Shown here piece after piece: positions 7,723 to 58,298 of a stretch of DNA of 64,000 bases. Within the stretch, counting starts at the first letter, position 1, and each line of letters opens with the position of its first letter. The position numbers and the translations under genes are program-made. The notes under the pieces were generated by a model. That model saw only the letters and a program-made list of their open reading frames with translations. It was not told where the DNA came from and searched no databases. Source of the stretch: Pleurocapsa minor GSE-CHR-MK 17-07R (GTDB taxonomy: Bacteria; Chloroflexota; Anaerolineae; Aggregatilineales; Phototrophicaceae); NCBI GenBank assembly GCA_019359125.1, contig JAHHHY010000008.1, forward strand, positions 1-64,000, in the 5' to 3' direction.

Positions 7723-8490
7723 CTACATGGTCTCGACGTCCAGCGGTTCGCCGGTTTCCAGCAGGCTTTTCAGGCTGGAAGTAATCTGGGCCCAGCCAGT
7801 CTGGATGCGGCCTGTCAGCGGGCTGGCCGGGTCGAGGCCGGCATGGGTCAGGGTCAGCTTGCAGGCTGCCTTGACGGGTTCAATCTCAAAAAGCACGTCG
7901 GTGATGTCGCCGCGCACGTCTTCGGGCAGCCAGACCGGGTTGAATGACATTCCCAGTTTGCTGTACGGCTCGTACGTCGTCACCATGCCTTCGATCAGCA
8001 CCTCGCCCGCCGCATTGATATAGCGATAGGGTGCGCCTGCCCCCCAGGTCGACTCCACGCGGCTGCTGGCGATGTAATACTGCTGCGTGATCTGTCCGTT
8101 GGTCAGGGCTTCCCACAGCTTTTCAGGCGTGGTGCGGATGAAAATCTGCATCTTGTGGACGGGTTTGCTCGACATGGCGTCAGACTCCAGCGCGTATTTG
8201 AGACCGGTTAGCGATTGTGACCACGGCTGCGCGTACTTGCTCACCCAGCGGTCATAGGCATCCTGCATTGGGATCGGGTTCAGGTAGTGGTATTTTTCAC
8301 GGCCCTCCTTGTGCGTCGTGATCAGACCGGCATCTTCGAGAATCTGCAAATGCTTCATCACGCCGTAGCGCGTCATCGGCAGATGCGTGCAGAGTTCGCC
8401 CAGGGTTTGCCCGTCGCGCTGAAACAGCACGTCCAGCAGCGTGCGCCGGTGTGCATCGGCCAGCGCCTTGAATACGGCATCGTCTTCCAT
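7723..8490 (-). CDS. ArsR-type HTH fused to SRPBCC (AHSA1-like) domain
   Basis: 255 residues in two domains. Residues about 1-95 are a winged HTH of ArsR type (VFKALADAHRRTLLDVL, then TRYGVMKHLQILEDAGLI as the recognition region, then the beta-wing HKEGREKYHYLN). Residues about 112-250 read as an SRPBCC/AHSA1 domain (MQIFIRTTPEKLWEALTNGQITQQYY, then GWAQITSSLKSLLETG). No metal-binding cysteine pair is seen, so the signal is more likely a hydrophobic or organic ligand bound by the SRPBCC cavity. Two matched operators lie in its own promoter (8506-8521, 8542-8557), which suggests autorepression. AGAGGA lies seven bases before the ATG. Confidence 0.87.
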   Translation of the reverse strand: MEDDAVFKALADAHRRTLLDVLFQRDGQTLGELCTHLPMTRYGVMKHLQILEDAGLITTHKEGREKYHYLNPIPMQDAYDRWVSKYAQPWSQSLTGLKYALESDAMSSKPVHKMQIFIRTTPEKLWEALTNGQITQQYYIASSRVESTWGAGAPYRYINAAGEVLIEGMVTTYEPYSKLGMSFNPVWLPEDVRGDITDVLFEIEPVKAACKLTLTHAGLDPASPLTGRIQTGWAQITSSLKSLLETGEPLDVETM

Positions 8491-8928: not shown

Positions 8929-10680
8929 ATGACGGATCAATTCCCCGCAACCCAGCGCACACTCGAAAAGTCGCCCACCGGCATCAGCGGTTTTGATGAA
9001 ATCAGCGGGGGTGGCCTGCCCAAAGGGCGGCCCTCTCTGATTTGCGGTGGCGCCGGCTGCGGCAAGACCCTCTTTTCGATGGAATTTCTCGTGAACGGTA
9101 TTCGGCAGTACGACGAGCCGGGCGTGTTTATGGCGTTCGAGGAAACACGCGAAGACCTGACCAAAAATACATCGTCCCTCGGCTTTGAGCTGGATGCGCT
9201 GGTGCAGCAGGGCAAGCTGATCGTCGATCATGTCAGCATCGAGCGGTCCGAGCTGGAGCAGGCCGGTGACTATGACCTGGACGGCCTGTTTGTGCGCCTG
9301 GGCTATGCCATCAAGAAGGTTGGCGCAAAGCGCGTGGTGCTGGACACCATCGAGGTCCTGTTTAACGCGCTAGGCGACAGCCAAATCCTGCGCGCAGAGC
9401 TGCGCCGCCTGTTTACCTGGCTGAAAAGCCAGGGCGTGACCGCCATCATCACCGGCGAGCGCGGCGACGGCACACTGACGCGCTATGGTGTGGAGGAATA
9501 TGTATCGGATTGCGTGATCCTGCTGGACCACCGCGTCGAAAACCAGATGTCGATTCGCCGCGTGCGCATCGTCAAATATCGTGGCAGCACGCACGGCACC
9601 GACGAATACCCGTTCCTGATCGATGAAACCGGCTTTTCGGTGCTGCCGGTTACGTCCGTCGGCCTGAATTATCCCGTCTCTGCCGAGCGCATCTCCAGCG
9701 GCATCCCGCGCCTGGACGCCATGCTGGATGGCAAGGGGTTTTACCGCGCCAGCACCATCATGGTGTCGGGCACGGGCGGCTCTGGCAAGTCGACACTGGC
9801 GGCCCATTTTGTGGATGCGGCTGCCGGGCGCGGTGAGAAATGCCTGTATTTCTCGTTTGAGGAATCTCCCAGCCAGATCATCCGCAATATGTCGTCCATC
9901 GGGATTGACCTGCAGCAGTGGGTGGATGCAGGCCTGTTGCAGTTCCGTAACGTGCGGCCGACCATGTACAGCATGGAAATGCACCTGGCCGTGCTGCACA
10001 AGGCCATTCGGGAGTATAACCCGCAGGTGGTCATCATGGACCCGATCACCAATTTCAATAACATCAGCAACACCAACGAGAGCCGCGCCCTGATTACGCG
10101 CCTGATCGACTTTCTCAAGTCGCGCGGGATTACAGCGCTGTTCACCAGCCTGACCAGCGCGGGCGAAGCGGCCGAGCAAAGCGGCATCGAAATCTCATCG
10201 ATCGTGGATGCCTGGTTGCTGGTGCGCAACGTGGAATTCAACGGCGAGCGCAACCGCGTCATGTATATCCTGAAGGCGCGCGGCATGGCCCATTCGAATC
10301 AGGTGTGCGAATTCCAGATCACGAATAATGGCATTCAACTGGTGGATGCCTATCTGGGGTCTGCCGGTGTGCTGACCGGCTCGGCCCGGCTGGCGCAGGA
10401 AGCGCGTGAGCGCGATGAGGAGCTGGCCATGCAGCAGCGGCTGGAGCTGCAACAGCTTCAACTGGAGCGCAAGCGTCTCTCGATCGAGGCACAGATTGCC
10501 GCGCTTCAGTCCGAGCTGGAGGTCGAACGCTCTGAAATTCAACTGCTGCTCGATCAGGACCGGCGGCGCAGGCAGTCTGCCGAGCAGTTCACGAATTCGA
10601 TGATGGCCATGCGCAATATGACTATTGAGGGTGTGAATACAACGTCTTCGCATGAACAGACAGAAGGTGCTTCGTCATGA
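8929..10680 (+). CDS. kaiC: KaiC-family double-RecA ATPase/kinase
   Basis: 583 residues. Two KaiC/RecA domains lie in tandem, each opening '[17 protein letters not shown]' or '[15 protein letters not shown]'-like. Walker A sequences are GGAGCGKT (domain I) and [10 protein letters not shown] (domain II). Each domain has a paired catalytic glutamate (FEETRED, FEESPSQ). In domain II, the segment EISSIVDAW aligns by eye with the region of cyanobacterial KaiC that holds Ser431/Thr432; here it is Ser423-Ser424, so a phosphorylatable pair is kept. A charged coiled coil (about residues 460-560, [16 protein letters not shown]) extends the C-terminus beyond standard KaiC (about 519). There is no KaiA gene nearby. 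The start is ATG 8929, nine bases after AGAAGG; ATG 8923 is too close. Its stop overlaps the first kaiB by four bases. Confidence 0.93.
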
Positions 10681-11012
10681 ATGGTGACAGTGATCTGATC
10701 AATCCGTCCAATGTGGACAAGTGGGAACTGCGGTTGTATGTGGCCGGCCAGACGCCCAAGTCGCTGACGGCGTTTGCCAACCTGAAGCGCATCTGCGAGC
10801 AGTATATGGAGGGTCAGGCCTATGAAATCAAAGTCATCGACCTGCTTGAAAATCCGCAGCTGGCCGAGGGGGATCAGATTGTAGCGATCCCCACGCTGGT
10901 GCGGTCGCTGCCAGAGCCGATCAAGAAGATCATCGGTGACCTGTCGAATACCGAGCGCGTGCTGGTGGGCCTTCAGCTTCGCCATGCCCACATAGATAGC
11001 GGCACAAGCTGA
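10677..11012 (+). CDS. kaiB: KaiB-like protein 1
   Basis: 111 residues. This is the thioredoxin-like KaiB fold: [25 protein letters not shown], then [27 protein letters not shown] with the cis-Pro loop (IPTL), and [14 protein letters not shown]. KaiB binds the ATPase ring of KaiC and is known to switch folds in cyanobacteria. Its ATG overlaps the kaiC stop (ATGA), and its own stop overlaps the next start (TGATG), so translation is coupled. It has a short extra tail (HAHIDSGTS). Confidence 0.93.
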
Positions 11013-11356
11013 TGGACGATGAAAGCGGCTGTTCGGACAGTAAGGAGCAGTTTGAGCAGGCTTTGCAGCAGCAGCACACCCAGCGCTACGTGTTGAAGCT
11101 GTATGTGACCGGCCAAACGATACGCTCGATTGCGGCGATTGCGGCGATTCGCGCCGTCTGTGAGCAGCATCTGCAGGGGCGCTACGAGTTTCAGGTTATC
11201 GATATTACGCGCCACCCACAGCTTGCCGAAGGGGAGCGGATTGTTGCAGCCCCTACGCTGATTAAAGAGCTGCCACTGCCGCTGCGCCGCCTGGTGGGGG
11301 ATATGTCTAACGAGGAAAAAGTGCTGTTGGGCCTCGATCTGATGCCGAAAGAATGA
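11012..11356 (+). CDS. kaiB: KaiB-like protein 2
   Basis: 114 residues, a second KaiB paralogue in the same operon. VLKLYVTGQTIRSIAAIAAIRAVCEQ is followed by FQVIDITRHPQLAEGERIVAAPTLIKELPLPLRRLVGDMSN. It has an N-terminal extension of about 25 residues rich in Asp/Glu/Gln (DDESGCSDSKEQFEQALQQQ) that KaiB1 lacks. The two KaiB proteins differ enough in the helix after YVxGQT to suggest separate partners, for example KaiC and the downstream kinase; this is inference. The start codon overlaps the upstream stop by one base. Confidence 0.92.
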   Translation: MDDESGCSDSKEQFEQALQQQHTQRYVLKLYVTGQTIRSIAAIAAIRAVCEQHLQGRYEFQVIDITRHPQLAEGERIVAAPTLIKELPLPLRRLVGDMSNEEKVLLGLDLMPKE

Positions 11357-11390
11357 TTCGCCTGTATGCCCGCACGCATGGAATACGGAA

Positions 11391-13787
11391 ATGTCTGCAC
11401 CCCGTGTATCAACCGAACAACTGCTTCAGGAAAATGCTGACCTTCGCAACCGCCTGGCAGAAGCAGAATCCACCCTCTACGCCATTCGTCAGGGCGAGGT
11501 GGATGCGTTTGTCGTCGAAACGAGCAAGGGGAATCAGATTTACACCCTGCACACTGCCGATCAGGCGTATCGGCAGCTGGTTGAACAGATGCAGGAAGGC
11601 GCGGTCACATTATCGACTGACGGCCTGATCCTGTACTGCAACCGCCGTTTTGCCGACACGCTGGAAACCAATGCAGACGAAATGGTGTCCACGCCCGTTG
11701 AACAGTTTGTGCTTCCTGAACACCGCGACGAATTTGCGGCGTTTCTGGGGGCTGTCATGCCGATTTTGGGGGCCCACCGCGAGTTCAGCTTTATCAGTGC
11801 CAATAATCGCATCGTTCCTGTAATGGTGGCCGCCAATCTGCTGATGATGGATCAGACGCAGGTCATCTGCCTGGTCGTGACCGATCTGACCGACCAGCGC
11901 CGGATGGAGATGGAGCTGCGCGACAGCGAAGAGACCATGCGCTCGATTATCGAGAACAGCATGGATGCCATCCTGCTGACGATTCCCAACGGCAAGATTC
12001 TGGCGGCAAACAGCGCAGCGACGCGCATGTTTGGCTATTCCGAGCAGGAAATTGTCGAGCTGGGCAGGACGGGGATCACTGATGCTCGCGATCCCCGCCT
12101 GAAGGCGGCTATCGAACACCGTAAAAATACTGGCCAGTTCATGGGCGAGCTGACCTTGATCCGCAAAGACGGCACGACTTTTCCCGGGGAAGTCTCGACG
12201 ACAATTTTTACAAATACCGCTGGTGAGCTGAGAACCACGCTGGTGATCCGCGATATCACCCAGCGCAAGCAGGCGGAGGAAGCGCTGCAGCACAGCGAGG
12301 CGCGCTATCGCTCGCTGGTCAACGCGACTTCCGAGGGTATCGTGCTGCACGGCGCGGATGGCCGGATTGAGTCATGCAACGCCGCCGCCGAGCGTATCCT
12401 GGGGCTGAGTATCGATCAGATGATGGGGCGCACGAGCGTCGATCCGCGCTGGCGCGCCGTTCATGAAGATGGTTCCCCCTTCCCCGGGGAGACACATCCG
12501 GCGATGGTGACGCTGAATACCGGGCAGCCCGCGACGAATGTTGTCATGGGCGTGCACAAGCCGGACGGCACGCTGTCGTGGATTCTGGTGAACGCACAGC
12601 CGATTTTTGACGCCGACGACCTGATGCATCCTTCGGCAGTGGTCGCGTCGTTCACGGATATCACGGACATCAAGCGGGTGGAAACGCTGCTGAAGGCCAG
12701 TGAGACGCGCTTCCGCACAATTTCCGAAATCATCACTAATTATGCGTATGGGTTCACCGTCGGCGCGGACGGCAGCATGCAGCACGAATGGACTGTCGGT
12801 GCATTCGAGGAGATTACCGGCTACACCGCTGCGCAGATGGATGAACGAGGTGGTTGGGCCGCGCTCATCCATCCGGACGACATGCCGATCGCAGCGCGCC
12901 GCATGAAGCAGTTGTTATCCGGCAAGGATTGTGTGGATGAGTTCCGCATCATGACGGCCAGCAACGAGGTGCGCTGGCTGCGCGACTATGGGCGCCCGCA
13001 GTGGGATGATGCGCTTGGTCGTGTGACCTATATCTTCGGCGCGGCGCAGGACGTGACCGAGCGCCGGCTGCTGGAGCAGCAGGCGGTCGCGCTGGCGCTG
13101 GAAAAGCAGCGTATCACCCTGCTGGCTGATTTCATCCGCGATACCTCGCATGACCTGCGCACGCCGCTGGCGACGATTACCATGAGCGTGTATCTGGCGG
13201 GGCGCACACAGGATGAAAATGTCCGGAAGGCCAAGCTGGCCGAAATCGAGGAGCAGGTATTCTATCTCAGCAAGGTGTTGGGGCAGTTCCAGCAGATGGC
13301 GATTCTGGACAGCCAGACTGAGATTGAGCCTCAGCCTGGTGATCTCAACCTGCTGGCGCAGGAGGCCGCATCGGTCTTGAAAGGCCAGGCAAAGAAGAAA
13401 GGCGTTTCGGTCACAATGGCGCTGGAAAGCAGCCTGCCGGTGAAGTTTGATGCTAATTTGCTTGAGCGCGCCGTGACCGAGCTGCTCATCAACGCTGTTC
13501 GCTTCACGCCTGAGGGGGGTGAGGTGCATGTTTCCACCGCCGACCGCGGCGATCATGTGGTGCTCGAAGTGGCGGATAACGGCATTGGCATCGGGCCGGA
13601 GGAGTATCCGCACATCTGGGAACGCTTCTTCAAGGTGGACAAGGCGCGCACGCTGGCCGGCGGGGCGGGCCTGGGCCTGCCGATGGTGCAGCGCGTCGCC
13701 GAGCTGCATCACGGGTCGGTGGAGGCCGAGAGCGTGCCCCATCAGCGGACGGTCTTCCGCATCGTGCTGCCGGCCAGCCAGGCGTAA
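11391..13787 (+). CDS. Cytosolic multi-PAS histidine kinase of the kai operon
   Basis: 798 residues with no membrane segment. An N-terminal coiled coil (LLQENADLRNRLAEAE) with the motif AIRQGEVDAFVV precedes four PAS/PAC units at about residues 55-165, 182-293, 303-425 and 438-562 (the last with HPDD and RWLRDYGRP, PAS fold 3 type). The dimerisation/phosphoacceptor helix has His587 in RDTSHDLRTPLATI. The ATPase domain has N (INAVRFTPEGG), G1 (DNGIGIG), F (IWERFFKV) and G2 (GGAGLGLPM) boxes. It starts 34 bases after kaiB2 in the same direction. It has no KaiB-like sensor domain, unlike SasA. There is no response regulator in the operon, so its target is elsewhere. Confidence 0.92.
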   Translation: MSAPRVSTEQLLQENADLRNRLAEAESTLYAIRQGEVDAFVVETSKGNQIYTLHTADQAYRQLVEQMQEGAVTLSTDGLILYCNRRFADTLETNADEMVSTPVEQFVLPEHRDEFAAFLGAVMPILGAHREFSFISANNRIVPVMVAANLLMMDQTQVICLVVTDLTDQRRMEMELRDSEETMRSIIENSMDAILLTIPNGKILAANSAATRMFGYSEQEIVELGRTGITDARDPRLKAAIEHRKNTGQFMGELTLIRKDGTTFPGEVSTTIFTNTAGELRTTLVIRDITQRKQAEEALQHSEARYRSLVNATSEGIVLHGADGRIESCNAAAERILGLSIDQMMGRTSVDPRWRAVHEDGSPFPGETHPAMVTLNTGQPATNVVMGVHKPDGTLSWILVNAQPIFDADDLMHPSAVVASFTDITDIKRVETLLKASETRFRTISEIITNYAYGFTVGADGSMQHEWTVGAFEEITGYTAAQMDERGGWAALIHPDDMPIAARRMKQLLSGKDCVDEFRIMTASNEVRWLRDYGRPQWDDALGRVTYIFGAAQDVTERRLLEQQAVALALEKQRITLLADFIRDTSHDLRTPLATITMSVYLAGRTQDENVRKAKLAEIEEQVFYLSKVLGQFQQMAILDSQTEIEPQPGDLNLLAQEAASVLKGQAKKKGVSVTMALESSLPVKFDANLLERAVTELLINAVRFTPEGGEVHVSTADRGDHVVLEVADNGIGIGPEEYPHIWERFFKVDKARTLAGGAGLGLPMVQRVAELHHGSVEAESVPHQRTVFRIVLPASQA

Positions 13788-13806: not shown

Positions 13807-15678
13807 TTACGGCAGAAAAACGTCGCAGCTTCCCGCGCCCATCTCGCAGCGGCCGATTTCCTGGCCGTCCCACAGCACGCGAAACTGCGTCACGCCATCG
13901 CGCGGGAGCCAGAAGACCAGCTCGCTGTCGCGCGGGGCGGTCACGATCGAGTTGTAGTTGCCGCACTGCCCCGGCCGCATGTACCCGCTCGACCGGTTGA
14001 TTTCCACGGCGGAGCATTTCCCGCTTTCGACACGGTTATAGCCCACCCATGACCAGCGTTCGCCATCAAACGACTGGCCAATCGCGCCGCCGGCCGCGTT
14101 GATGGCCTCAAAACGAATCGAGGTCACCAGAATCGGCGGATGCCCCGGATTGCTCCAGTAAAAGCTGTTGGCATCCCACAGGAAGGTGACGCGCCGTCCA
14201 CCGGGATAGAGCACGGTTGGCTGGGCGGGCGCGGGCGGCTGGGTCGGCGCGACGTCGGTTGGGGCAGGCGCAGGGGTGGGCGGCACATCGGTCGGGACAG
14301 CGGCGGCCGTCGGCGGCACATCGGTCGGCGGCGGTGCGTCTGTGTTTACCGGCAGCACCGGCACGACGACAATCTCGGTTGGCGGAATGGGCGTCGGGCT
14401 GGGCGGAATCGGTGTATTCGAGGGCACGCTGAGCGCCATGCCGTCCAGTGGGGTGCTTTGCGTGGCGCTGGCGATGATCGCGACAGAGGTGGGGTCGGTG
14501 GCGCTGCGCCCGTCCAGCAGCGCGGCGGCCAGCAGCAGCACGATGCCGCCGATGCCGGCCAGAATCAGCGTCGCCACGACCAGCAGCGACGACAGCTGGC
14601 GCGTCGGGTCTGAGGAGGCTTTGGGCGGCGGGGCCAGCGGCGGTGTGTCGGCCGCCATCACGGGCTGGGCCGTGCGCTGATGCTCCTGCGTGGACGGGAT
14701 GCGCGGCGGGTCGGGCATATTCTGCGTATTGACCGAGCGCGCATGGAGGGCGATGCGTTCTGATACGGTGCGGATTGACATCGTGCGCGAACGCCCGATA
14801 GCTGCCGGTTGTTCCGTGGATGACATCGGCGTGGGCGCGGCTTTCAGCGCGTGCGCCAGCGCATCGATCAGCGCGGCTGCCGAGGCGAAACGCCCGGCCG
14901 GGTCCTTGCTCAGCGCACGCAGCAGCACCGCCTCGGTCGCGGCATTCAGCGCAGGATTGATGCTGCGTGGGGGCGGGGGCGGCTTTTCCAGATGCATCAG
15001 CACGAGCGTCGCCAGCGACGGGTCATCAAAGGGGACGGTGCCGGTCAGCATCTCGTAGAGCATCACCCCGAATGAATACAGATCTGAGGCAGCGGTGGCG
15101 TCGGCAGAGCGCACGGCCTGTTCCGGCGCGATGTAATGCGGCGAGCCGAATACTTCGCCGACCGAGCCCTGCTGCACATCCAGCGCGAGGCCGAAATCGG
15201 TCAGCACGACGCGGTCATCCACCGAAATCATGACATTCGAGGGCTTCACGTCGCGGTGCACCACACCCTTGCTGTGGGCATAGTCGAGCGCGCTGGCAAT
15301 CGCCCGGGCGATCTTGAGCACATCCTCATGCGGCATCAGCTCGCCTTCGGTGGCGTACTGGCGCAGCAGCGAGGACAGGTCCATGCCATTGATGTATTCC
15401 ATCACGAAGTAGTACAGGCCGGCGTCCTGATCGGCGTAAAAGACCTGCACGATATGCTCGTGACGCCAGGTGGCGACCGCGCGCGCCTCGTTGATGAAGC
15501 GCGTGGCATAGGCGGGTTCGTCGCGGTAGCGCGCATCGATCACCTTGATGGCGACCGGCCGCTGCAGCGTGACATCGCGCCCGAAGTAGACCTGCGCCAT
15601 GCCCCCGCGCCCCAGCACGCGCTCGATGACGAAATTGGCCAGCCGTCGATTGATAAGGGGGTCCTGATCCTGCATCAT
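13807..15678 (-). CDS. Membrane-anchored Ser/Thr protein kinase (PknB-like)
   Basis: 623 residues. Kinase domain at about 13-275: glycine loop VLGRGGMAQV, Lys45 in VAIKV, catalytic HRD at 141-143, DFG at 161-163, IAPEQ and YSFGVMLYEMLTG. A linker leads to one membrane helix at about 362-386. A Pro/Thr-rich stalk (PPTDVPPTAAAVPTDVPP) follows, then an extracytoplasmic beta-rich domain at about 490-623 with three cysteines (GKCSAVE, GQCGNY, GRCEMGAGSC). There are no PASTA repeats; the outer domain is of unknown ligand. Its stop lies 20 bases from the stop of the convergent Kai-operon kinase. Confidence 0.92.
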   Translation of the reverse strand: MMQDQDPLINRRLANFVIERVLGRGGMAQVYFGRDVTLQRPVAIKVIDARYRDEPAYATRFINEARAVATWRHEHIVQVFYADQDAGLYYFVMEYINGMDLSSLLRQYATEGELMPHEDVLKIARAIASALDYAHSKGVVHRDVKPSNVMISVDDRVVLTDFGLALDVQQGSVGEVFGSPHYIAPEQAVRSADATAASDLYSFGVMLYEMLTGTVPFDDPSLATLVLMHLEKPPPPPRSINPALNAATEAVLLRALSKDPAGRFASAAALIDALAHALKAAPTPMSSTEQPAAIGRSRTMSIRTVSERIALHARSVNTQNMPDPPRIPSTQEHQRTAQPVMAADTPPLAPPPKASSDPTRQLSSLLVVATLILAGIGGIVLLLAAALLDGRSATDPTSVAIIASATQSTPLDGMALSVPSNTPIPPSPTPIPPTEIVVVPVLPVNTDAPPPTDVPPTAAAVPTDVPPTPAPAPTDVAPTQPPAPAQPTVLYPGGRRVTFLWDANSFYWSNPGHPPILVTSIRFEAINAAGGAIGQSFDGERWSWVGYNRVESGKCSAVEINRSSGYMRPGQCGNYNSIVTAPRDSELVFWLPRDGVTQFRVLWDGQEIGRCEMGAGSCDVFLP

Positions 15679-35344: not shown

Positions 35345-35647
35345 GGTGTCATCCTCACTCTGCGAAACAATCGATGCCTTTACGATATCCGCAGGCGGGT
35401 TCGCGGCCATGAGACAGTCACAGGGGATGAGGCTGGGTGAGGTGGGCCAATTTCATCTGGCACATCAGGCCCGCAGGATACGGGTCATGGGGCACCCGCC
35501 TTGCCGTGGCTGTCAGGTGGTCAGAATCTTTGTATTTCAGATCAGATTGCAGTCAGGGAGGGGGATCGTATCCCATGCGACGGGTTTCCTTCATGGCTTA
35601 TGCCCTATGCTGAGGGTGTGCTCATGGGGCGCTGGAGGGAGGGTGAC
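35345..35647. other. 303-bp gap: divergent promoters and first copy of the propeller-gene leader
   Basis: The right part (35533-35647) is the 115-bp leader repeated at 39641-39755. The left part must hold the promoter of the PRC-barrel gene; I see no clear boxes or further gene. Confidence 0.5.
35533..35647 (+). repeat. 115-bp leader repeat, copy 1
   Basis: This matches 39641-39755 over exactly 115 bases with about nine mismatches counted by eye, ending at the ATG of a propeller gene in both places. Its last 20 bases (GCGCTGGAGGGAGGGTGAC) equal the 3' end of other family members, including their stop codon. Confidence 0.85.
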
Positions 35648-36793
35648 ATGCGGAGATTGCTGGCTGTGCTGCTGATGGTGTTGGTTGTGGGGTCTGGCGT
35701 GCAGGCGCAGGAAGGCAACCAACAAATTGTCTCCCATGTCGAATGGTCAGCGGACGGTGAACGGATTTTGGTCACGCTGGAACAGGGCGGACTCTATGTC
35801 ATCGACCCTAACACGCAAACAGTTCTGAGTGAAATTCCAGGCAGCATCACCGGTCCAATTGAAGATGCGGCTCTGCAACCCGGTGGTAATCTATTCGCCA
35901 CAGTTGAACGATTTACAGGACTAAAAATCTGGAATATCGAAACTGGTGCATTCGTCTATTCAAACGCTGATCTTGTATTCTCGTGGCAAGTGGACTGGAG
36001 CCCAAATGGAGAACAAGTTGTCACAGGGAATACGTATTCCCTGTCTGTGCGTGATGCTATGGGCAATCCCCTGTTCGCTGTTTCTTCGACTATCGACGAT
36101 ATTCCCCGCGTTGCATTTAGCCCAAATGGACGACTTCTCGCTCTTGGTTACACATACAGACTTGAAGTTTACGATTTGGCACTCCGTCAATCTGTAGCCT
36201 CACACATTGTGTCTGGGTTTCGCAATTCAATTCAATGGAGTGCTGATGGAACTATGATTCTTGCAGCGGCAATAGACGCGTTGCGTGAAGGCAGGCTGTA
36301 CAACATCCTTGTCATTGATCCTATGACTGGAGAACGACTGCGAACCTACTCAGGGTTCCCAAATGAATTGACTTCCGCACGCTGGAGTCCCGATGAAACA
36401 CAGATTGTAGCAACTAGCATTGATGGCAATGTTTATCTTGTGGAAGCAGCATCAGGTGCCATTACGTCGATTTTCTCGTCTGATTTTCCTATACGGTCGG
36501 CAGCGTGGAGCCCATACGGCGGCCAGATAGCTATTGGCGTGCCACAAAGTTCCGATGCTGAAATTGCAGGTCGTGCCGATGACGCCTTCGCCGCTGTGCC
36601 TGTACAGATCATCGTCCCCGACCCCAGCATTGAGCGCCTGAACGCCATCGCCGCGGCGTGCGACGCGCCCGTCTCGCTCAGCACCGACATGGCCGACTAC
36701 ATCGCGCAGATCGAGGCTTTGCCTGCCGACGGCATCCCGCCCGCCTGCGCCGCGGACCTGCTGGCCGTCGCGCGGGCGCTGGAGGGGGAGTGA
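35648..36793 (+). CDS. Secreted WD/propeller-family protein, member 1
   Basis: 381 residues. The signal peptide MRRLLAVLLMVLVVGSGVQA is followed by QEGN. About six propeller blades follow, recognised by the strand motif WS-x-[DN]-G (VEWSADGERIL, VDWSPNGEQVV, VAFSPNGRLLA, IQWSADGTMIL, ARWSPDETQIV, AAWSPYGGQIA). A 60-residue C-terminal module from VPDPSIERLNAIAAACDAP to the end has two cysteines and is shared by four other proteins here. Blades probably serve protein-protein contact outside the cell; ligand unknown. The body is visibly richer in A/T than the module. It is preceded by the 115-bp leader; GGAGGGAGGG is the ribosome-binding site. Confidence 0.88.
   Translation: MRRLLAVLLMVLVVGSGVQAQEGNQQIVSHVEWSADGERILVTLEQGGLYVIDPNTQTVLSEIPGSITGPIEDAALQPGGNLFATVERFTGLKIWNIETGAFVYSNADLVFSWQVDWSPNGEQVVTGNTYSLSVRDAMGNPLFAVSSTIDDIPRVAFSPNGRLLALGYTYRLEVYDLALRQSVASHIVSGFRNSIQWSADGTMILAAAIDALREGRLYNILVIDPMTGERLRTYSGFPNELTSARWSPDETQIVATSIDGNVYLVEAASGAITSIFSSDFPIRSAAWSPYGGQIAIGVPQSSDAEIAGRADDAFAAVPVQIIVPDPSIERLNAIAAACDAPVSLSTDMADYIAQIEALPADGIPPACAADLLAVARALEGE
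36611..36793 (+). repeat. C-terminal module repeat, copy 1 (183 bp)
   Basis: GC-rich segment encoding the shared tail. This copy differs by CDAPVSLSTDMADYIAQIE and ALPADGIPP. Other copies are at 40773, 42185, 50926 and 52119. Confidence 0.9.
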
Positions 36794-36867
36794 CTTGAGG
36801 ACACTGCTGCCTTCGGGGCTAGCCGTCATACCGGGACAGAAGCTCCTGTGAGGGGAGAGCGCGTGCA

Positions 36868-37497
36868 TCAGGTATGTCCTCCGTCGTCAGCCGGGGCGGA
36901 GGTCACGTCAGTCGCGTCCAGGCCGAGCGCCCAGGCCCCTGTGTTGGCTTCCAGTTGATGACACATACGCGCCATCTGCTCAGGCGTATAGGGCATGTCG
37001 TGCAGCACCCACCAGCGCACCAGGCCGACAAACGCGCCGGCATAGAAATGCTCCACAACTTCCAGGGGAATGAGTGGTTTGGCATGGGCGGGCAAACGCG
37101 CCTGTTCCCCTGCGATGGCGGCCTGGGCAAAATAGTCGATCAGCCTGCCCAGCAGCGAGAGTGAGCCTTTTTCGCTCAACATCACCCGATACAGGCGCGC
37201 GTATTCCTGCACGTGCTGAAAGGCATACAGGGTATCCCGCTCGATCCACTCGCGCAGGTTTGCCACGTCGCGCTGTTTTTCCGCCAGCCCTTCATACAGC
37301 TCGTGCATCACCTGAAACAGCAGGTCCTCTTTATCGCGGTAGTGAAAATAGAACGTCACCCGATTCAGGTTGGCGCGGTCGGTGATGTCCTGGATGGTGA
37401 TGCCCGCATAGCCTTGTTCTTCGATCAGCGCAAACAATGCCTCGCGCAGCAGCGCGCGCGTCCGCTGCACGCGCCTGTCCAGCTTTTGATCGCCCAT
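36868..37497 (-). CDS. TetR-family transcriptional regulator
   Basis: 209 residues. The N-terminal HTH (about 8-60) reads RVQRTRALLREALFALIEEQGYAGITIQDITDRANLNRVTFYFHYRDKEDLL, typical of TetR. The C-terminal ligand domain resembles TetR_C_7-like forms (FYAGAFVGLVRWWVLHD). It is divergent from a flavin amine oxidase; the shared gap has inverted repeats ATACGACAC and GTGTCGTAT. It probably represses the oxidase and itself until an amine or related ligand binds (inference). Confidence 0.9.
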   Translation of the reverse strand: MGDQKLDRRVQRTRALLREALFALIEEQGYAGITIQDITDRANLNRVTFYFHYRDKEDLLFQVMHELYEGLAEKQRDVANLREWIERDTLYAFQHVQEYARLYRVMLSEKGSLSLLGRLIDYFAQAAIAGEQARLPAHAKPLIPLEVVEHFYAGAFVGLVRWWVLHDMPYTPEQMARMCHQLEANTGAWALGLDATDVTSAPADDGGHT

Positions 37498-37518
37498 GAT
37501 ATTTTACACCTGTTGCTT

Positions 37519-37602
37519 ATACGACACCTTGTTACGGCGTTTGTTGACACGCTGTACAGTTATTTTATACGATTCGGCCAGTTCTTCAACATTGTGTCGT
37601 AT
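37519..37602. promoter_or_regulatory. Candidate TetR operator region
   Basis: ATACGACAC (37519-37527) and its exact inverse GTGTCGTAT (37594-37602) flank a plus-strand promoter-like TTGACA (37544-37549) with TACGAT (37568-37573). A third half-site, TATACGA, overlaps that -10. Confidence 0.5.
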
Positions 37603-37617
37603 TACGTGGAGTGCATG

Positions 37618-38871
37618 ATGAAAGTCAACACAGAGGTGCTGGTGATTGGGGCGGGCATGGCGGGGCTGAAAGCGGCGCGCGACTTGCAGGACGCCGGGCT
37701 GGCGGTGCAGGTGCTGGAAGCACGCGACCGGATTGGCGGACGCATCCATACGGATCGGGATTTTGCGCCTGTGCCCGCTGAGATGGGCGCCGAACTGATC
37801 CATGGTCTGGGTGCGGAAACCTGGGAGATCGTCAGGCAGCAGGGCATCGCCACCCGGCCGGTGCGCCGCATCCTGATGCGCGGAAACAAGGGGCGCTGGC
37901 AGCCGCTTGAAGAAGTGTCGAATGGTGATCGCGACTGGGAGCTGCCGGTCCTGCCGCAGGATCACGAAAGCGTGCAGGCCTACCTGAGCCGGTTGCGCGT
38001 GTCGCCGAATGAGTATCCCGATCTGGTGCATCGCCTGCGCATTGACACAGCCGAGCTGCACGAGGTGAGTGCCCTGGAAGTCGCCCAGCAGGTCAGCGCG
38101 CAGCTTGAAGAAGGCGAGCTGGAAGGCGACGCAGACTTTCGCGTGCATGGTGGCTATGACCAGCTGGTGCATGCGCTGGCGGACGGCTTGCACATTCACC
38201 ACGGCGCGCAGGTCGAGTTGATCGACTATTCCGGGCTGGAGGTGCGCGTGTACTGCACCAATGGCGCGCTGTTTACAGCCCCGCGCGTGATCCTCACGCT
38301 GCCGGTTGGTGTGCTTCAGTCACGGATGGTGCGCTTTCTGCCCGCCCTGCCTGCCAGCCGGCAAGCCGCTGTCGATGCGCTGAAAATGAGCGATGTGGTC
38401 AAGCTGCATGTGTACTTTGACGCGCCGGTGTTTCCGCCGGGCGTGGATGGCATGGTGGATCTGGACGGGACGCCGCCGTACTGGTGGAATGCCTCATCCG
38501 GGTCAGGTGCGCAGGGTGAGCTGCTGGTGGGCTGGGGCGCTGGCGATGCCGCGCGCAGGCTGATCGCGCTCGGTCCGCAGGACGGGCTGGCGCTGGCGCT
38601 CGATCAACTGCGTGGTGTGCTGGGCCGGGCAGACCTGAAGCCTGCGGCCGCCCGCCTGCATCACTGGAATGCGGATCCGTTTGCGCGTGGGGCCTATTCG
38701 TTCGTGCCGCCGGGAGCGCATCAGGCGCGCTCGGTCCTGTCTGCGCCCCTCGAGGACCGGCTGTTCTGGGCCGGCGAGGCGACCGACAGCCGTTATGGCA
38801 CGGTGCACGGGGCCTATCGCAGCGGCGCCCGTGCTGCCGTAGAGGTGCTGGCGCGCATCGCTCAGCGGTAA
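37618..38871 (+). CDS. Flavin-containing amine oxidase
   Basis: 417 residues. The FAD dinucleotide motif is VLVIGAGMAGLKAARDLQDAG, followed by EARDRIGGRIHTD. The C-terminal FAD site reads FWAGEATDSRYGTVHGAYRSGARAAVEVL, the typical monoamine/polyamine oxidase ending; PVGVLQSRMVRFLPALP lies in the middle. No signal peptide is seen, so it is probably cytosolic. It oxidises an amine to aldehyde, NH3 and H2O2; the substrate is not readable. The start is ATG 37618, six bases after GGAG (37615 is too close). It is regulated, most likely, by the divergent TetR gene. Its last ten bases overlap the convergent phosphatase. Confidence 0.9.
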   Translation: MKVNTEVLVIGAGMAGLKAARDLQDAGLAVQVLEARDRIGGRIHTDRDFAPVPAEMGAELIHGLGAETWEIVRQQGIATRPVRRILMRGNKGRWQPLEEVSNGDRDWELPVLPQDHESVQAYLSRLRVSPNEYPDLVHRLRIDTAELHEVSALEVAQQVSAQLEEGELEGDADFRVHGGYDQLVHALADGLHIHHGAQVELIDYSGLEVRVYCTNGALFTAPRVILTLPVGVLQSRMVRFLPALPASRQAAVDALKMSDVVKLHVYFDAPVFPPGVDGMVDLDGTPPYWWNASSGSGAQGELLVGWGAGDAARRLIALGPQDGLALALDQLRGVLGRADLKPAAARLHHWNADPFARGAYSFVPPGAHQARSVLSAPLEDRLFWAGEATDSRYGTVHGAYRSGARAAVEVLARIAQR

Positions 38872-39572
38872 TTCCCGCGGATGCCGCGCGGCTGGACGGG
38901 CAGGCGGGACTCGTACAGATGCGAGGTATCGCCCACCGACAGCGCGCGCGGCACCGCAAAGTCGGCGCTGCGCTGCTCGAATAACACGGTGCTGACCGCG
39001 CTGGGCGCATGCCAGAAGCTGCTCCACACCAGCGGCGGCGGAATGTGCAGCAGCAGCGACAGCCACAGCAGCGCGGTGCCGTTGTGGCAGAAACAGGCCA
39101 CCTGCTTCTCATTTGCCCCCGTCACACGATAACGATTCCCCTCGCGCACATAGCCCAGCCCGGCCAGAAAGGCGTCCGACTCGGCCTGAAACTCGCTCAC
39201 GGTATCGCGGTAGATCGGGCGGTGAAACGGCGCGGTCGCGTCCCAGGTGTCCCAGACATGATAGGCGGGGTTGGCGCGCAGCTCCTCGCCCGGGATGTCC
39301 CACGCGGGGATGAATCCGCCCTCGATGGGGTCGGGGCCGGTAGACCAGCCCACCACCTCGGCCAGCCAGTCGTGCGTGATGACCGGCAGCTTGAGCAGGT
39401 CGGCGCTGTAGCGGGCAGTGATTTCGGCGCGGGGCAGGGGCGACGCGCAGATCAAGTCCAGCCCATGCCCGGCCAGCCGACGCGCCAGCGCGGCCGCCTC
39501 CAGGTGACCAGCAGGGGTGAGCGTGTTGTTCGGGTAGTCGGGGTCGGCATGGCGGATGATGTACAGGCGCAT
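38862..39572 (-). CDS. Histidine phosphatase family protein
   Basis: 236 residues. The catalytic RHG-type motif appears as IIRHADPDYPNNTLTPAGHLEAAALARRL, with the phosphorylated His in RHA. ICASPLPRAEITARYSADLL is the second arginine region and ACFCHNGTALLWL carries the second catalytic His. Members range from phosphoglycerate mutases to broad phosphatases. The divergent RHAD suggests a phosphatase. Substrate unknown. The 3' ends of this gene and the amine oxidase overlap by ten bases. Confidence 0.88.
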   Translation of the reverse strand: MRLYIIRHADPDYPNNTLTPAGHLEAAALARRLAGHGLDLICASPLPRAEITARYSADLLKLPVITHDWLAEVVGWSTGPDPIEGGFIPAWDIPGEELRANPAYHVWDTWDATAPFHRPIYRDTVSEFQAESDAFLAGLGYVREGNRYRVTGANEKQVACFCHNGTALLWLSLLLHIPPPLVWSSFWHAPSAVSTVLFEQRSADFAVPRALSVGDTSHLYESRLPVQPRGIRGNYR

Positions 39573-39640
39573 GGGCGGGTCTCCGGGTCATGTGGGGCGC
39601 AAACCCATGAATAGTACGCGCGATTAGGCCGGGCGTCATA

Positions 39641-39755
39641 TATTTCAGATCAGATTGCAATCAGGGAGGGAGATCGTATCTCATGCGACGGTTTTTCTTC
39701 ATGGCTTATGCCCTATGCTGAGGGTGTCCTGATCGGGCGCTGAAGGGAGGGTGAC
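39641..39755 (+). repeat. 115-bp leader repeat, copy 2
   Basis: Same length and about 92% identity by eye to 35533-35647. It includes the ribosome-binding site AAGGGAGGG of member 2. Confidence 0.85.
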
Positions 39756-40955
39756 ATGCGGAGACTGCTGGCTAGTCTGCTGATGGTGCTGTTCGTGGGG
39801 TCTGGTGTGCAGGCCCAAGACACAGATTCGACCACTCGAATCACACGTGTGGTCTGGAGCCCCGATGGAACGCGTGTAGCGACGAGCTACCGGGATGGAC
39901 GCATCCTGATCGATTCCCTAGAGGGTCAACAGCAGCGATTGCTTCTACAGGCCGATACATCTCGAATTCTGGGGCTGGCATGGAGCCCCGATGGTCAACT
40001 GCTTGCAAGCGGCAGCACCAGTCCTGACAATGCCCTGCGAATTTGGGACGCAATAACGGGAGAGCAGGTACATGTGGTGGCTGATTTCGGTCTGGACATC
40101 TTGACAGTTACATGGAGTCCAAATGGGCAATATATACTTGCCGTGACTGCGGAGCCATTCAACACTCCAAGTAATGCCGTGTTGGTAGATAGCACAACAT
40201 TGCAAAGCACTACCTTCTCAACTGGAGCTGTTTCAGACATTGCTTGGAACCTTGATGGTACTCAAGCTGCTTTCTCAAACATTTCTTTCAATGTTGAGGT
40301 GCGTAATGTGGCATCGTTGGATTTGGCGTCGAGATATATGTACGATGCTCCTTTTATACCAGGATTACTTAATCAATTGATTAAGGTTACATGGAGTTCC
40401 ACGGGAGAATATATAGCAGGAGGTACTGGCGATGGTCGAATCATTATTTGGAGATTTGATTCCCCTGAACCAGTGCATGTGCTTGAAGGTAATTCATACC
40501 AAGGGGAAAATATTGCTTTAGCATGGATCAACGAACTCTATTTCGATGACTCAGGACAATATGTGACGAGTGTAAGTCGCGACGGAACCCTGCGCAGATG
40601 GGTGGTTGAAACAGGAAATCTGGTTTCAGAGCAAATGGTCACCCCTCAGTATGCCGCCGACTTCAGTCCGTATGGTGGTCGTCTGGCTTTAGGTTTGGCA
40701 TTACCAGAAAACATGGCTGCAACCCAGGTCGATCTTGTCGTTGAAACCCTCGCAAGCGGAGCAATCCAGATCGTCGTCCCCGACCCCAGCATCGACCGGC
40801 TTAACACCATCGCCGCGGCGTGCGACGCGCCCGTCTCTCCCACCACCGACATGGCCGACTTCATCGCGCAGGTCGAGGCTCTGCCTGCCGACAGCATCCC
40901 GCCCGCCTGCGCCGCTGACCTGCTGGCCGTCGCGCGGGCGCTGGAGTCGCAATAG
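39756..40955 (+). CDS. Secreted WD/propeller-family protein, member 2
   Basis: 399 residues. The signal peptide MRRLLASLLMVLFVGSGVQA precedes QDTD. Blades are marked by VVWSPDGTRV, LAWSPDGQLLASGS, VTWSPNGQYILAV, IAWNLDGTQAAF, VTWSSTGEYIAGGTGDGRIIIWR and DFSPYGGRLALG. The WSPDG...IW pattern is true WD40-like here. The C-terminal module (VPDPSIDRLNTIAAACDAP) is shared. The middle, about 40080-40740, is strikingly A/T-rich against the GC-rich ends, as if the body came from elsewhere or drifted under different selection. A terminator follows at 40988-41023. Confidence 0.88.
   Translation: MRRLLASLLMVLFVGSGVQAQDTDSTTRITRVVWSPDGTRVATSYRDGRILIDSLEGQQQRLLLQADTSRILGLAWSPDGQLLASGSTSPDNALRIWDAITGEQVHVVADFGLDILTVTWSPNGQYILAVTAEPFNTPSNAVLVDSTTLQSTTFSTGAVSDIAWNLDGTQAAFSNISFNVEVRNVASLDLASRYMYDAPFIPGLLNQLIKVTWSSTGEYIAGGTGDGRIIIWRFDSPEPVHVLEGNSYQGENIALAWINELYFDDSGQYVTSVSRDGTLRRWVVETGNLVSEQMVTPQYAADFSPYGGRLALGLALPENMAATQVDLVVETLASGAIQIVVPDPSIDRLNTIAAACDAPVSPTTDMADFIAQVEALPADSIPPACAADLLAVARALESQ
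40773..40955 (+). repeat. C-terminal module repeat, copy 2
   Basis: Variant with IDRLNTIAAACDAPVSPTTD and an ending ARALESQ in place of LEGG. Confidence 0.9.
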
Positions 40956-40987
40956 AGTCGTAAATTTGCGGATTACCCAGCGACAAT

Positions 40988-41023
40988 AAAACAGGCGAGC
41001 CAGAGATTGGCCTGCCTGTTTTT
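40988..41023 (+). terminator. Intrinsic terminator after propeller member 2
   Basis: AAAACAGGC (40988-40996) pairs with GCCTGTTTT (41014-41022), with an inner CCA/TGG pair and a T run at the end. Confidence 0.88.
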
Positions 41024-41161
41024 CTATGCCGCGTGCAGTCACCAGGCCTTATGCAGCGATCTGACACAATTGACGTACCAGCATGGCACCATCTGCCAGT
41101 ACGATTTCGATGTACGAATTCGACAGATATTCGTATTAAATCAGTGGTGAAGAGGTTTAGA

Positions 41162-42367
41162 ATGATGTTCCATATACAGATGGTGATTTCTGGTATTGTC
41201 GTGGTATTTGCCCTGTTTGGCTTTACATTAACCGTAACGCAAGCTCAAGTTAGTAGCGGAAGTTTTGTAACTTCTCCTAGCTGGAGTGTAGACGGAACGA
41301 AAATTGCCATTGCCGTCGGTGACAACGTTGAAGTCTATGACGCTATAACTCAACAATTGATTTATGTACTGGAGGGTCACAGCAATTTCATATCTATGAT
41401 TGCCTGGAGTCCTGACAATACTATGATTGCCACTTCCAGTTACGATCAAACTGTAATGATATGGGCAACTGGCGATGGCACTCTTCTTCGTACACTAACG
41501 GGACACAACGATTCGGTTACGGCCATTGCATGGTTTCCAGATAGTCAGCGACTTGTCAGTTCAGGACTTGAAAGTGAACCGAGCTTATTCGTTTGGTATG
41601 CACAAACAGGAACTCTAATTTCAACACATAGCGGAGGCAGTATTACGGACCTCGCATTTAGCCCAGATGGGCGGAGAATTGCTTTTTCGACATCGCTCTC
41701 AATTGGCACGTTTGATTCACAAACGTTTGAATTGCTTTCGAGATCGCCCCGTGTTCAGTGTTGTCCAAACACCATGTACTCAATTGCCTGGAATCGCACG
41801 GGAGATTCACTGATAACAGGTAGTATCAACGGTTTGGTGACAATCTGGGATTCACAAACCGGACAAATGCGGAACCAGTTTGTGGCAAACCCGTATTTTG
41901 AATCAGATAGTCGTGAGATTGAGCGTTTAGATCTTTCATGGGTGCGCGACGTAACGTTTGCCCAAAACGATAATCTGGCTCTTGCAGTTAGTGGAGACGG
42001 ATCCTTAAGAGAATGGAATTCAGTTACAGGTGAGATGATCCAAAATTTACCAATTGCTATCTCGCACATTGCTGCAAGCTGGAGTCCGTATTCTGGAAGG
42101 CTAGCCGTTCTGGAACTCCAAAGTCTGGCAGCAACCGATGGTGAAAATTTAGATACTGGAGTCACTACGGGAAACCTGACGATTATCGTCCCCGACCCCA
42201 GCATCGAGCGGCTGAACGCCATCGCTGCGGCGTGCGACGCGCCCGTCTCGCCCAGCACCGACATGGCCGACTTCATGGCGCAGGTCGAGGCTTTGCCTGC
42301 CGACAGCATCCCGCCCGCCTGCGCCGCGGATTTGCTGGCCGTCGCGCGGGCGCTGGAGGGAGGGTGA
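41162..42367 (+). CDS. Secreted WD/propeller-family protein, member 3
   Basis: 401 residues. The signal peptide (MMFHIQMVISGIVVVFALFG..., cleavage at VTQA before QVSS) differs from the MRRLL type. Blades are clear WD40: PSWSVDGTKIAIA, IAWSPDNTMIATSSYDQTVMIW, IAWFPDSQRLVSSG, LAFSPDGRRIAFS, IAWNRTGDSLITGSINGLVTIWD and ASWSPYSGRLAV. The shared C-terminal module follows. AGAGG lies about seven bases before ATG 41162; a longer frame from 41033 is rejected. The body is A/T-rich. The stop is one base before the next gene's ATG (TGACATG). Confidence 0.87.
   Translation: MMFHIQMVISGIVVVFALFGFTLTVTQAQVSSGSFVTSPSWSVDGTKIAIAVGDNVEVYDAITQQLIYVLEGHSNFISMIAWSPDNTMIATSSYDQTVMIWATGDGTLLRTLTGHNDSVTAIAWFPDSQRLVSSGLESEPSLFVWYAQTGTLISTHSGGSITDLAFSPDGRRIAFSTSLSIGTFDSQTFELLSRSPRVQCCPNTMYSIAWNRTGDSLITGSINGLVTIWDSQTGQMRNQFVANPYFESDSREIERLDLSWVRDVTFAQNDNLALAVSGDGSLREWNSVTGEMIQNLPIAISHIAASWSPYSGRLAVLELQSLAATDGENLDTGVTTGNLTIIVPDPSIERLNAIAAACDAPVSPSTDMADFMAQVEALPADSIPPACAADLLAVARALEGG
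42185..42367 (+). repeat. C-terminal module repeat, copy 3
   Basis: Nearly consensus form, with MADFMAQVE as the one obvious change. Its end (LEGG, stop) is also the ribosome-binding site of the next gene. Confidence 0.9.
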
Positions 42368-42368
42368 C

Positions 42369-49834: not shown

Positions 49835-49899
49835 ACGCATACATGGGCGCTGGATGGACAGTGAGAGATGAATCAGATTTTTACGCTGAAAGGCTGGTG

Positions 49900-51108: not shown

Positions 51109-51110
51109 TC

Positions 51111-57596: not shown

Positions 57597-58298
57597 ATGA
57601 ACCACATTCTCCTCATTGACGATGAACGTAAACTCACCGATCCGCTGCGCGCGTCCTTCGAGCGTTCCGGCTATCGCGTGTCGGTGGCCAATGACGGCCC
57701 GGCGGGACTGGGGCTGGCCCTGGCCGAGAAGCCGGATGTGATTGTGCTGGATGTCATGATGCCGGGGATGGATGGCTGGCAGGTGTGCCAGACGGTGCGC
57801 CAGCACAGCACCACGCCCATCATCATGCTGACAGCGCTGGACGACAGCATCGACCGGATTCGCGGGCTGGAGCTGGGCGCAGATGACTATCTCGTCAAGC
57901 CCTTTGGCTATAAAGAGCTGGAAGCCCACGTGCGCGCCATGCTGCGCCGCGTGCGGCTGGACCAGAGCGATCAGGCCCCGCAGCGCCTCAACATCGGCGA
58001 GATCACGCTCGATGCGCAGGCGCACAAAGTCTTTCGGGCGGGCAAAGAACTGGCGCTGCGCCAGAAAGAATTCGAAATCCTCACTTTGCTGATGAGCAAT
58101 CTGGGCAAGGTGGTCACGCGGGAGCGCCTGTTTGACGAGGTGTGGGGCACCGACTGGCTGGGCGATACGCGCACGCTGGATGTGCACATGAGCTGGCTGC
58201 GCGCCAAGCTGGAAGCGGATCCGGCCAACCCGGCCTACCTGCAAACGGTGCGCGGCGTGGGCTATCGCTTTGCTGACCCTGGCCAGGCAGGGTCATGA
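57597..58298 (+). CDS. OmpR/PhoB-type response regulator
   Basis: 233 residues. Receiver with Asp8-Asp9, phosphoacceptor Asp52 (VIVLDVMMPGMDGW), Thr in IMLTALD and Lys in DDYLVKPFGYKEL. The C-terminal winged helix is of OmpR type (LALRQKEFEILTLLMSNLGKVVTRERLFDEVWG, then RTLDVHMSWLRAKLE, then VRGVGYRF). It overlaps the kinase gene by four bases. A CTTAAAT direct repeat lies 54 bases before the ATG, suggesting autoregulation. Confidence 0.95.
   Translation: MNHILLIDDERKLTDPLRASFERSGYRVSVANDGPAGLGLALAEKPDVIVLDVMMPGMDGWQVCQTVRQHSTTPIIMLTALDDSIDRIRGLELGADDYLVKPFGYKELEAHVRAMLRRVRLDQSDQAPQRLNIGEITLDAQAHKVFRAGKELALRQKEFEILTLLMSNLGKVVTRERLFDEVWGTDWLGDTRTLDVHMSWLRAKLEADPANPAYLQTVRGVGYRFADPGQAGS

Follow-up and report, generated by a model that had tools for sequence, protein, structure and literature searches.

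A four-gene operon made up of kaiC, two kaiB genes, and a sensor histidine kinase gene is described here from Pleurocapsa minor GSE-CHR-MK 17-07R (Chloroflexota), in the first 64,000 nucleotides of contig JAHHHY010000008.1 (the window). The reading preferred here, to which we give a probability of roughly 0.55 from sequence analysis, is that a timer of KaiC2 and one KaiB (KaiB-a) is read through the other KaiB (KaiB-b) by a dedicated receptor module at the start of the kinase, the four genes forming a self-contained timer-to-regulator unit. It is carried by the genes themselves, by two kinds of KaiB, a conserved gene order, the specificity of the module for kaiB neighbourhoods, and interchangeable outputs. 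The further proposal that the module is a new Kai-dedicated receptor domain with KaiB-b as its adaptor, a portable socket between a KaiC2 timer and interchangeable outputs in the manner of a split SasA, is put forward tentatively, at slightly less than even odds. The names KaiB-a and KaiB-b were chosen to avoid a clash with KaiB1-3 of Synechocystis. Genomes are numbered G and loci L; statements on published systems refer to passages of the papers cited.

The sensor module and its kaiB neighbourhood

The module takes up about 64 residues at the start of the kinase and is unnamed. In the AlphaFold2 model (mean predicted local distance difference test score, pLDDT, 89), a long helix (residues 8-33) and a beta-hairpin (39-52) precede a PAS fold. 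Residues 1-62 of the kinase have no match in Pfam, the first match beginning at residue 63; the 25 listed of 88 NCBIfam matches of the kinase all lie in later parts than the module; a PDB sequence search with the module gave a best E of 0.03, to an unrelated entry; and a fold search with the module model returned, among the 50 matches listed, mostly PAS or LOV sensor domains. The common start of these sensors reads LRxRLxEAEETLxAIRxGEVDALVVxxxxGxQVYTLxGADxPYR (alignment A3, 46 of 70 rows), and the catalytic halves behind it belong to different families.

Output domains were scanned with Pfam in 66 module proteins, some of them clipped by contig ends, four of the 70 having been omitted (200 amino acids or less). 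PAS was found in all 66, HATPase_c in 33, HisKA in 29, HWE in six, and HisKA_3 in three; further domains were GGDEF (six), EAL (six), receiver (13), and sigma-54 activator (three). The module also heads HD-type proteins (module-GAF-HD). At L031, L036, L042, and other Bacteroidales loci the module gene encodes about 235 amino acids, that is, module plus PAS with no room for a kinase; at some of these loci a separate kinase gene comes next.

The genome of the window (G000, 23 contigs) has one module copy, at this locus; its remaining matches to the longer alignment start no earlier than the PAS part. Among 61 relatives there are three clear copies, confined to G000 and G023, the genomes with tandem kaiB; a weak match in G053 (L118; E 9.6e-4, above the cut-off of 1e-5 used later) lies in a 3.2-kb stretch free of kai genes. 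Module copies adjoin kaiB in 13 of 13 cases (once a kaiB fragment) in 11 genomes picked for having the locus. A second sample comprised 1305 genomes, drawn from the class or phylum of each of four genomes that have the locus (289 + 321 + 345 + 350, centres included), with a cut-off of E 1e-5 and the best 17-21 candidates scored per genome. All four groups contain the locus, and the sample partly overlaps the first, in that L148 and L091 are the same stretch of DNA and both L163 and L164 closely resemble L085. It yielded 54 module copies in 53 genomes, found with module model A3, which was built from kai loci and could miss remote kai-less relatives. Directly upstream of 53 of the 54 lies kaiB (once broken into two frames), and the 54th lies 3.4 kb downstream of a copy that adjoins kaiB. 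Within the genomes sampled, this near-exclusive kaiB neighbourhood led us to reject a generic N-terminus of PAS kinases. Of the 50 loci outside the centres, 44 have kaiC, with KaiB-a and KaiB-b (28), two KaiB-a and one KaiB-b (1), KaiB-a only (14), or a broken kaiB (1); five have KaiB-b only and no kaiC within 1.5 kb, and one has neither.

Two kinds of KaiB in a conserved gene order

By sequence, the KaiBs are of two apparently old kinds, KaiB-a going with KaiC and KaiB-b adjoining the sensor. In a quick tree of 148 KaiBs (100 columns, few according to the program; read without a root), one branch (Shimodaira-Hasegawa approximate likelihood ratio test, SH-aLRT, 90) separates all 58 position-1 KaiBs and all 15 single KaiBs from the 58 position-2 KaiBs; support is 95 when L049 and L052 are left out of the former set. 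The first KaiB of the window groups with the position-1 and single KaiBs, the second with the position-2 KaiBs. At two loci with three or four KaiB copies, the sensor-adjacent copy is of the b kind. The best PDB match of KaiB-a is the KaiB of R. sphaeroides (8fwj_M, 106 bits), that of KaiB-b, narrowly, a cyanobacterial KaiB (96 vs 93 bits). A diagnostic site on strand beta-2 is Ile in 92% of KaiB-a and Leu in 98% of KaiB-b, and YVAGQ in KaiB-a corresponds to YVTG in KaiB-b. The slow switching of R. sphaeroides KaiB is due to isomerisation of three prolines (PMC11551320), which are present in both KaiBs of the window and in 98-100% of each kind; the structure nearest to the AlphaFold2 model of KaiB-b (mean pLDDT 71.5) is a fold-switched KaiB. 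The a and b models used for scoring were built from rows of the best 80 loci, described below, plus the window only, with L061 excluded from the KaiB-b alignment. An FExxL-like peptide ahead of the KaiB fold occurs in 29 of 60 KaiB-b and one of 75 KaiB-a, a pattern defined on this same set; in a second set it occurs in only five of 34 KaiB-b (none of 44 KaiB-a), which rules it out as a universal mark of KaiB-b.

Relatives of the window KaiC were sought by an alignment scan of one genome per species (84,980 species), and the best 80 of at least 566 confirmed relatives, which are nearest relatives and not a random sample, were examined. Locus L039, on the same contig as L018 (G023), was counted once; this contig is the same DNA as PABP01000004.1. 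Conservation of the four-gene order in other genomes had been set beforehand as one test of a preliminary description of the operon. The description passed it, since 56 of the 80 closest KaiC loci have the order kaiC-kaiB-kaiB (or more)-module gene, which also disposes of an operon unique to this genome. The others have kaiC-kaiB-module (7), kaiC-kaiB-kaiB and then a contig end (2), kaiC-kaiB with no module seen (5, of which two cut within 2.5 kb), or kaiC without kaiB or module (10, of which three cut by a contig end); among the 62 loci with at least 2.5 kb downstream, these five classes number 46, 6, 0, 3, and 7. At L045, L046, L053, L066, L071, L083, and L095 (Ignavibacteria/Chlorobi records), no kaiB or module gene was found downstream of KaiC2.

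According to record titles, the loci come from Bacteroidota, Ignavibacteria/Chlorobi, several proteobacterial classes, Acidobacteria, Planctomycetes, relatives of Verrucomicrobia, Nitrospira, Chloroflexi, Spirochaetia, Polyangium, and Methanoperedens archaea; most records are metagenome bins, and single taxon assignments may be wrong. Culturable isolates that carry the operon include, for example, Spirosoma, Mucilaginibacter, and Thiocystis. KaiB is present in 11 of the 61 close relatives (G000 included), the tandem kaiB cluster only in G000 and G023, of the same family. The other nine (G002, G005, G006, G012, G014, G020, G026, G048, G053; same genus, family, or order) have no clear module and a different KaiB, beside which, at 7 of 10 loci (L015-L025 without L018), lies a KaiC that is 36-39% identical. 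Such a patchy distribution is as expected of horizontal spread or frequent loss.

Split clusters show which KaiB stays with which partner. In three genomes of one genus, kaiC2 and KaiB-a lie on one contig (a vs b scores 141 vs 124, 141 vs 123, and 139 vs 121 bits); on another, a multi-PAS protein carries KaiB-b fused to its C-terminus, and next to it is a module-GAF-HD protein (L185, L186, L187), which we read as HD-GYP. In two genomes of another genus in the same family (G1157, G1141) nothing KaiC2-like was matched, the best scores being 403 and 398 bits vs 715-871 for KaiC2, yet kaiB-b and a module kinase are retained. G069 (record Halochromatium salexigens) combines a kaiC2-KaiB-a-module locus with a separate kaiB-b-module locus. 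In all six split genomes, the KaiB next to the module that has no kaiC is of the b kind (98 vs 82, 96 vs 84, 130 vs 113 twice, 130 vs 114, and 127 vs 112 bits); these represent at most three independent events, consistent but not many.

Tests of correlated loss are suggestive at best. Loss in the second half of the module, compared between 58 loci with at least two KaiBs and 10 with one (second module rows of L018 and L056 omitted), gave p 1.4e-5 uncorrected, with the loci of one KaiB lower in the first half (p 0.003) and in the PAS part (p 2e-4) as well; allowing for relatedness, six independent pairs gave a mean of 3.3 in agreement, none opposed, and a median p of 0.25 for the second half. 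A repeat, uncorrected for relatedness, gave p 3e-4 for the second half and 0.31 for the first. Loss of the second half at loci with KaiB-a only is taken as a hint. A double dissociation, with the first half going with KaiC and the second with KaiB-b, was dropped because the first-half loss of b-only copies (p 0.001) is also seen in sister loci of the same genus with both KaiBs (L168-170, L172, L178).

KaiC, gene layout, and flanking genes

The KaiC of the window has two KaiC ATPase stretches (Pfam, 6.6e-118) and is, judged by sequence, of the KaiA-independent KaiC2 type, since its best solved relative is the R. sphaeroides hourglass KaiC, its predicted phosphosite is Ser-Ser, and it has a coiled-coil tail. 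The match to this relative (8dba, 686 bits over residues 12-547) extends into the tail; the best KaiC in PDB outside the 8dba record scores 391 bits. Across 85 KaiCs, namely those of the window, of L018, of four plasmid loci, and of 79 genome loci, both halves have an invariant Walker A Lys and Glu pair (85/85), Ser stands at position 423 in 83 and likewise at 424 in 83, the counterparts in R. sphaeroides being S413/S414 (title of 8fwj), and the part from residue 478 onward has a median of 99 residues. It is at least 40 residues long in 84 of the 85 and shorter in L018 only, where the KaiC of the closest relative has no tail after that point. In L018 (G023, 9376-10797) and in L230, L231, and L232, which belong to the three split-cluster genomes of one genus, KaiC2 stops before the coiled-coil tail. 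The clade was defined by tail and two serines, and R. sphaeroides KaiC phosphorylates without KaiA (Pitsawong 2023, PMC10076222).

Features of the operon (positions in the window)
Feature	Position	Strand	Basis
kaiC, KaiC2 type (predicted), 583 amino acids	8929..10680	+	Open reading frame, Pfam, PDB match
Predicted autophosphorylation pair Ser423-Ser424 in CII	10195..10200	+	Aligned with Ser-Ser pair of R. sphaeroides
KaiC C-terminal tail, residues 479-583	10363..10677	+	Aligns with coiled-coil tail of R. sphaeroides
kaiB-a, KaiC-linked KaiB	10677..11012	+	Pfam KaiB 7.3e-28, PDB match, KaiB tree
kaiB-b, sensor-linked KaiB	11012..11356	+	Pfam KaiB 5.4e-25, KaiB tree
FEQAL peptide, N-terminal in KaiB-b, 14 residues ahead of KaiB fold	11051..11065	+	
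Soluble four-PAS sensor histidine kinase, 798 amino acids	11391..13787	+	Pfam, AlphaFold2 model, hydropathy
Kai-associated N-terminal module: helix 8-33, beta-hairpin 39-44/47-52, first PAS helix (model)	11409..11600	+	
HisKA dimerisation and phospho-acceptor domain, His in SHDLRTP	13125..13313	+	Pfam, motif
HATPase_c catalytic domain	13449..13778	+	Pfam, motifs located

The four genes are one isolated co-directional unit: kaiC and kaiB-a overlap in ATGA, kaiB-a and kaiB-b in TGATG, and 34 bp separate kaiB-b from the kinase gene; an in-frame ATG upstream, at 8923, is an alternative start of kaiC. The kinase matches HisKA (5.5e-07) and HATPase_c (9.9e-26). Its first PAS (Pfam match 63-121, fold to about 165 in the model) is followed by PAS regions at about 183-291, 311-426, and 470-550, and its maximum 19-residue hydropathy of 1.57, vs 2.86 in a neighbouring Ser/Thr protein kinase, fits a soluble protein. 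No match to KaiA was found in Pfam scans of 56 of the 60 open reading frames of the window, the rest of the genome not having been searched for it. The sole receiver-domain gene found in these scans (57597-58295) lies about 44 kb off and adjoins its own kinase. A promoter and terminator scan gave no signal (3 found vs 1.9 and 4 vs 4.6 in shuffles).

With these data the preliminary description could be checked. Its four-gene unit in one direction, its two different KaiBs, its soluble four-PAS kinase lacking a KaiB-like domain, and, for the 56 open reading frames scanned in the window, the absence of KaiA and of a nearby response regulator all held; so did its double-domain KaiC, the "extra" coiled coil of which is the known KaiC2 tail. 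Its KaiA-less KaiC/KaiB switch reporting to a kinase is partly supported, at the level of gene neighbourhood; the KaiC2 type, the KaiB kinds, and the module had escaped it.

Upstream, the unit is flanked by a divergent minus-strand gene (7723-8490). The Ser/Thr protein kinase gene (13807-15678, minus strand) is convergent with the sensor kinase gene, 19 bp away, and encodes a hydrophobic, probably membrane-spanning segment. Several genes at 35501-43472 and 49831-52301 have WD40/beta-propeller matches.

Proposed mechanism, alternatives, and known systems

We infer every contact, the direction of signalling, and the timekeeping in the following scheme. KaiC2, as a double hexamer joined by its coiled coils, would autophosphorylate Ser423/Ser424 without KaiA, following the ATP:ADP ratio; by homology with R. 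sphaeroides, fold-switched KaiB-a would bind the CI ring and lead to dephosphorylation. KaiB-b, likewise able to switch its fold, would be the adaptor that presents the state of KaiC to the kinase by docking on the hairpin and helix of its N-terminal module, plausibly through addition of strand beta-2 to the module hairpin, as KaiB does with KaiA and CikA. This docking is a hypothesis; the strongest difference between the two kinds sits on beta-2. The coiled-coil helix and the PAS array would relay the signal to HisKA/HATPase, and the kinase may signal to an unlinked response regulator. The cyanobacterial precedent is a fold-switched KaiB that attaches to the CI part of KaiC and presents strand beta-2 to KaiA and CikA; for that site on KaiC, the KaiB-like domain of SasA is a competitor (PMC6378743).

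Several points weigh against this scheme. The module hairpin is of modest confidence (pLDDT about 62-75), and at the beta-2 site that best tells the kinds apart, where KaiB-b usually has Leu, that of the window has Phe. Ten KaiBs from other Kai sets fall on the b side of the tree, where KaiB-b is not shown as one clade, and in the second sample the a/b score margin is below 10 bits in 7 of 14 KaiBs of a-only loci and in 8 of 29 b calls of loci with both. The tie between KaiB-b and the QVYTLxxADxPYR segment of the module is not significant once relatedness is allowed for, and this segment is partly degenerate (by eye) in the b-only module copy of G069. In fifteen of the 80 loci no module is seen and KaiC2 has a single KaiB (5) or no KaiB at all (10), five of the fifteen being cut by a contig end; these, with the seven that have one KaiB plus module, argue that KaiB-b is not needed everywhere. 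Finally, a tail-joined double hexamer should not form in L018 and the three split-cluster genomes, judging from their tail-less KaiC2.

A real possibility, if on balance not the expected one, is that no time is kept: KaiC2/KaiB would be an energy-charge or stress sensor hub gating the kinase, with no hours-long delay. The locus is found, by record titles, in many groups not known for phototrophy and in Methanoperedens archaea, and other KaiB/KaiC homologues, including KaiC2-KaiB2 of Synechocystis, are believed to be clock-independent (PMC11372060); against it, both KaiBs keep the three prolines that slow the switching of R. sphaeroides KaiB, and the KaiC of the window keeps its tail. It appears unlikely that the kinase is an input, with PAS domains sensing redox, oxygen, or light and resetting KaiC through KaiB-b. 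The four PAS domains and the PAS-KaiB-b fusion in three genomes would suit such a role, and Schmelling 2017 reports a suggestion that the kinase of the R. sphaeroides operon relays a redox signal to KaiBC, but the many module proteins with output domains (kinase, GGDEF/EAL, sigma-54 activator, HD) would be odd for a mere clock input. A KaiB-b that is redundant or serves dosage, with a module that is no more than a PAS linker, would accord with the lack of KaiB-b in some lineages and with the prolines common to both kinds, and is made very improbable by position-specific KaiB kinds across phyla, by their diagnostic differences, by the partner-specific pairing in split clusters, and by the kaiB that adjoins nearly every module copy.

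If a KaiC2/KaiB-a timer is indeed read through KaiB-b by the module, this would be a non-cyanobacterial clock-output pathway, and the outputs would be three kinase classes, cyclic di-GMP enzymes, and sigma-54 transcription, in bacteria and some archaea. Module plus KaiB-b would be a candidate route by which Kai systems without KaiA, in organisms other than cyanobacteria, signal their state to the cell. With the module near-exclusive to kaiB and its outputs swappable, outputs of KaiC2 timers may become predictable genome by genome.

Compared with known systems, the module and the split into KaiB-a and KaiB-b were not found described in the open literature, covered mostly as text passages, with few subscription papers. 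The kinase, which has no Pfam match to KaiB-like, GAF, or receiver domains (E 0.001), need not be missing a link to KaiC, since it carries the Kai-associated module. CikA carries a GAF domain. CikA also has a C-terminal pseudo-receiver (PMC6378743); the kinase of the window differs from it in both domains. SasA and CikA are alike in linking KaiC to a histidine kinase by a KaiB-fold or KaiB-binding domain (PMC6378743); in SasA this is an N-terminal KaiB-like thioredoxin domain, whereas the link in the window would be a separate KaiB plus the module. The KaiABC oscillator (KaiC1) differs in its Ser-Thr site, that of the window being Ser-Ser, and in KaiA, which was not found in the window.

Closer systems lie outside cyanobacteria. 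Operons of kaiC-kaiB followed by a kinase or GGDEF/EAL protein were noted by De Luca 2011 (PMC3164672), whose section 17 restricts its definition of an N-terminal domain to kinases from kaiC operons that lack kaiB and does not treat KaiB paralogy; these RtaNt kinases form kaiC-kinase pairs without kaiB, whereas the window has two kaiBs. A set of kaiC, kaiB, and a PAS kinase gene is known from R. palustris (PMC4794148), the kinase or PAS protein of the R. sphaeroides operon is likewise in print (PMC5520375, PMC6627678), and one annotation sentence on Thiodictyon syntrophicum kaiCBB (PMC5944118) places kaiC and two kaiBs beside a diguanylate cyclase gene. The nearest system is the KaiC2-KaiB hourglass of R. 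sphaeroides (PMC10076222; its main text contains none of the terms "histidine kinase," "operon," or "two KaiB"). Its operon has one KaiB only, and the kinase at its end is annotated as HWE type. Like the window, it has a Ser-Ser site, a coiled-coil tail, a KaiB to which KaiB-a is closest, and a terminal kinase with the same N-terminal module; it does without KaiA, to which 56 of the 60 open reading frames of the window gave no match. The window has sequence marks of this hourglass, namely a double-domain KaiC with intact ATPase motifs, two predicted serine phosphosites, a C-terminal tail extension, and KaiBs with the three switch prolines. By sequence, the core of the system is the known KaiC2 hourglass; what is new is the Kai-associated sensor module together with its kind of KaiB, and the four genes together resemble a plug-in of wide occurrence by which the state of a timer would reach the regulators of the cell.

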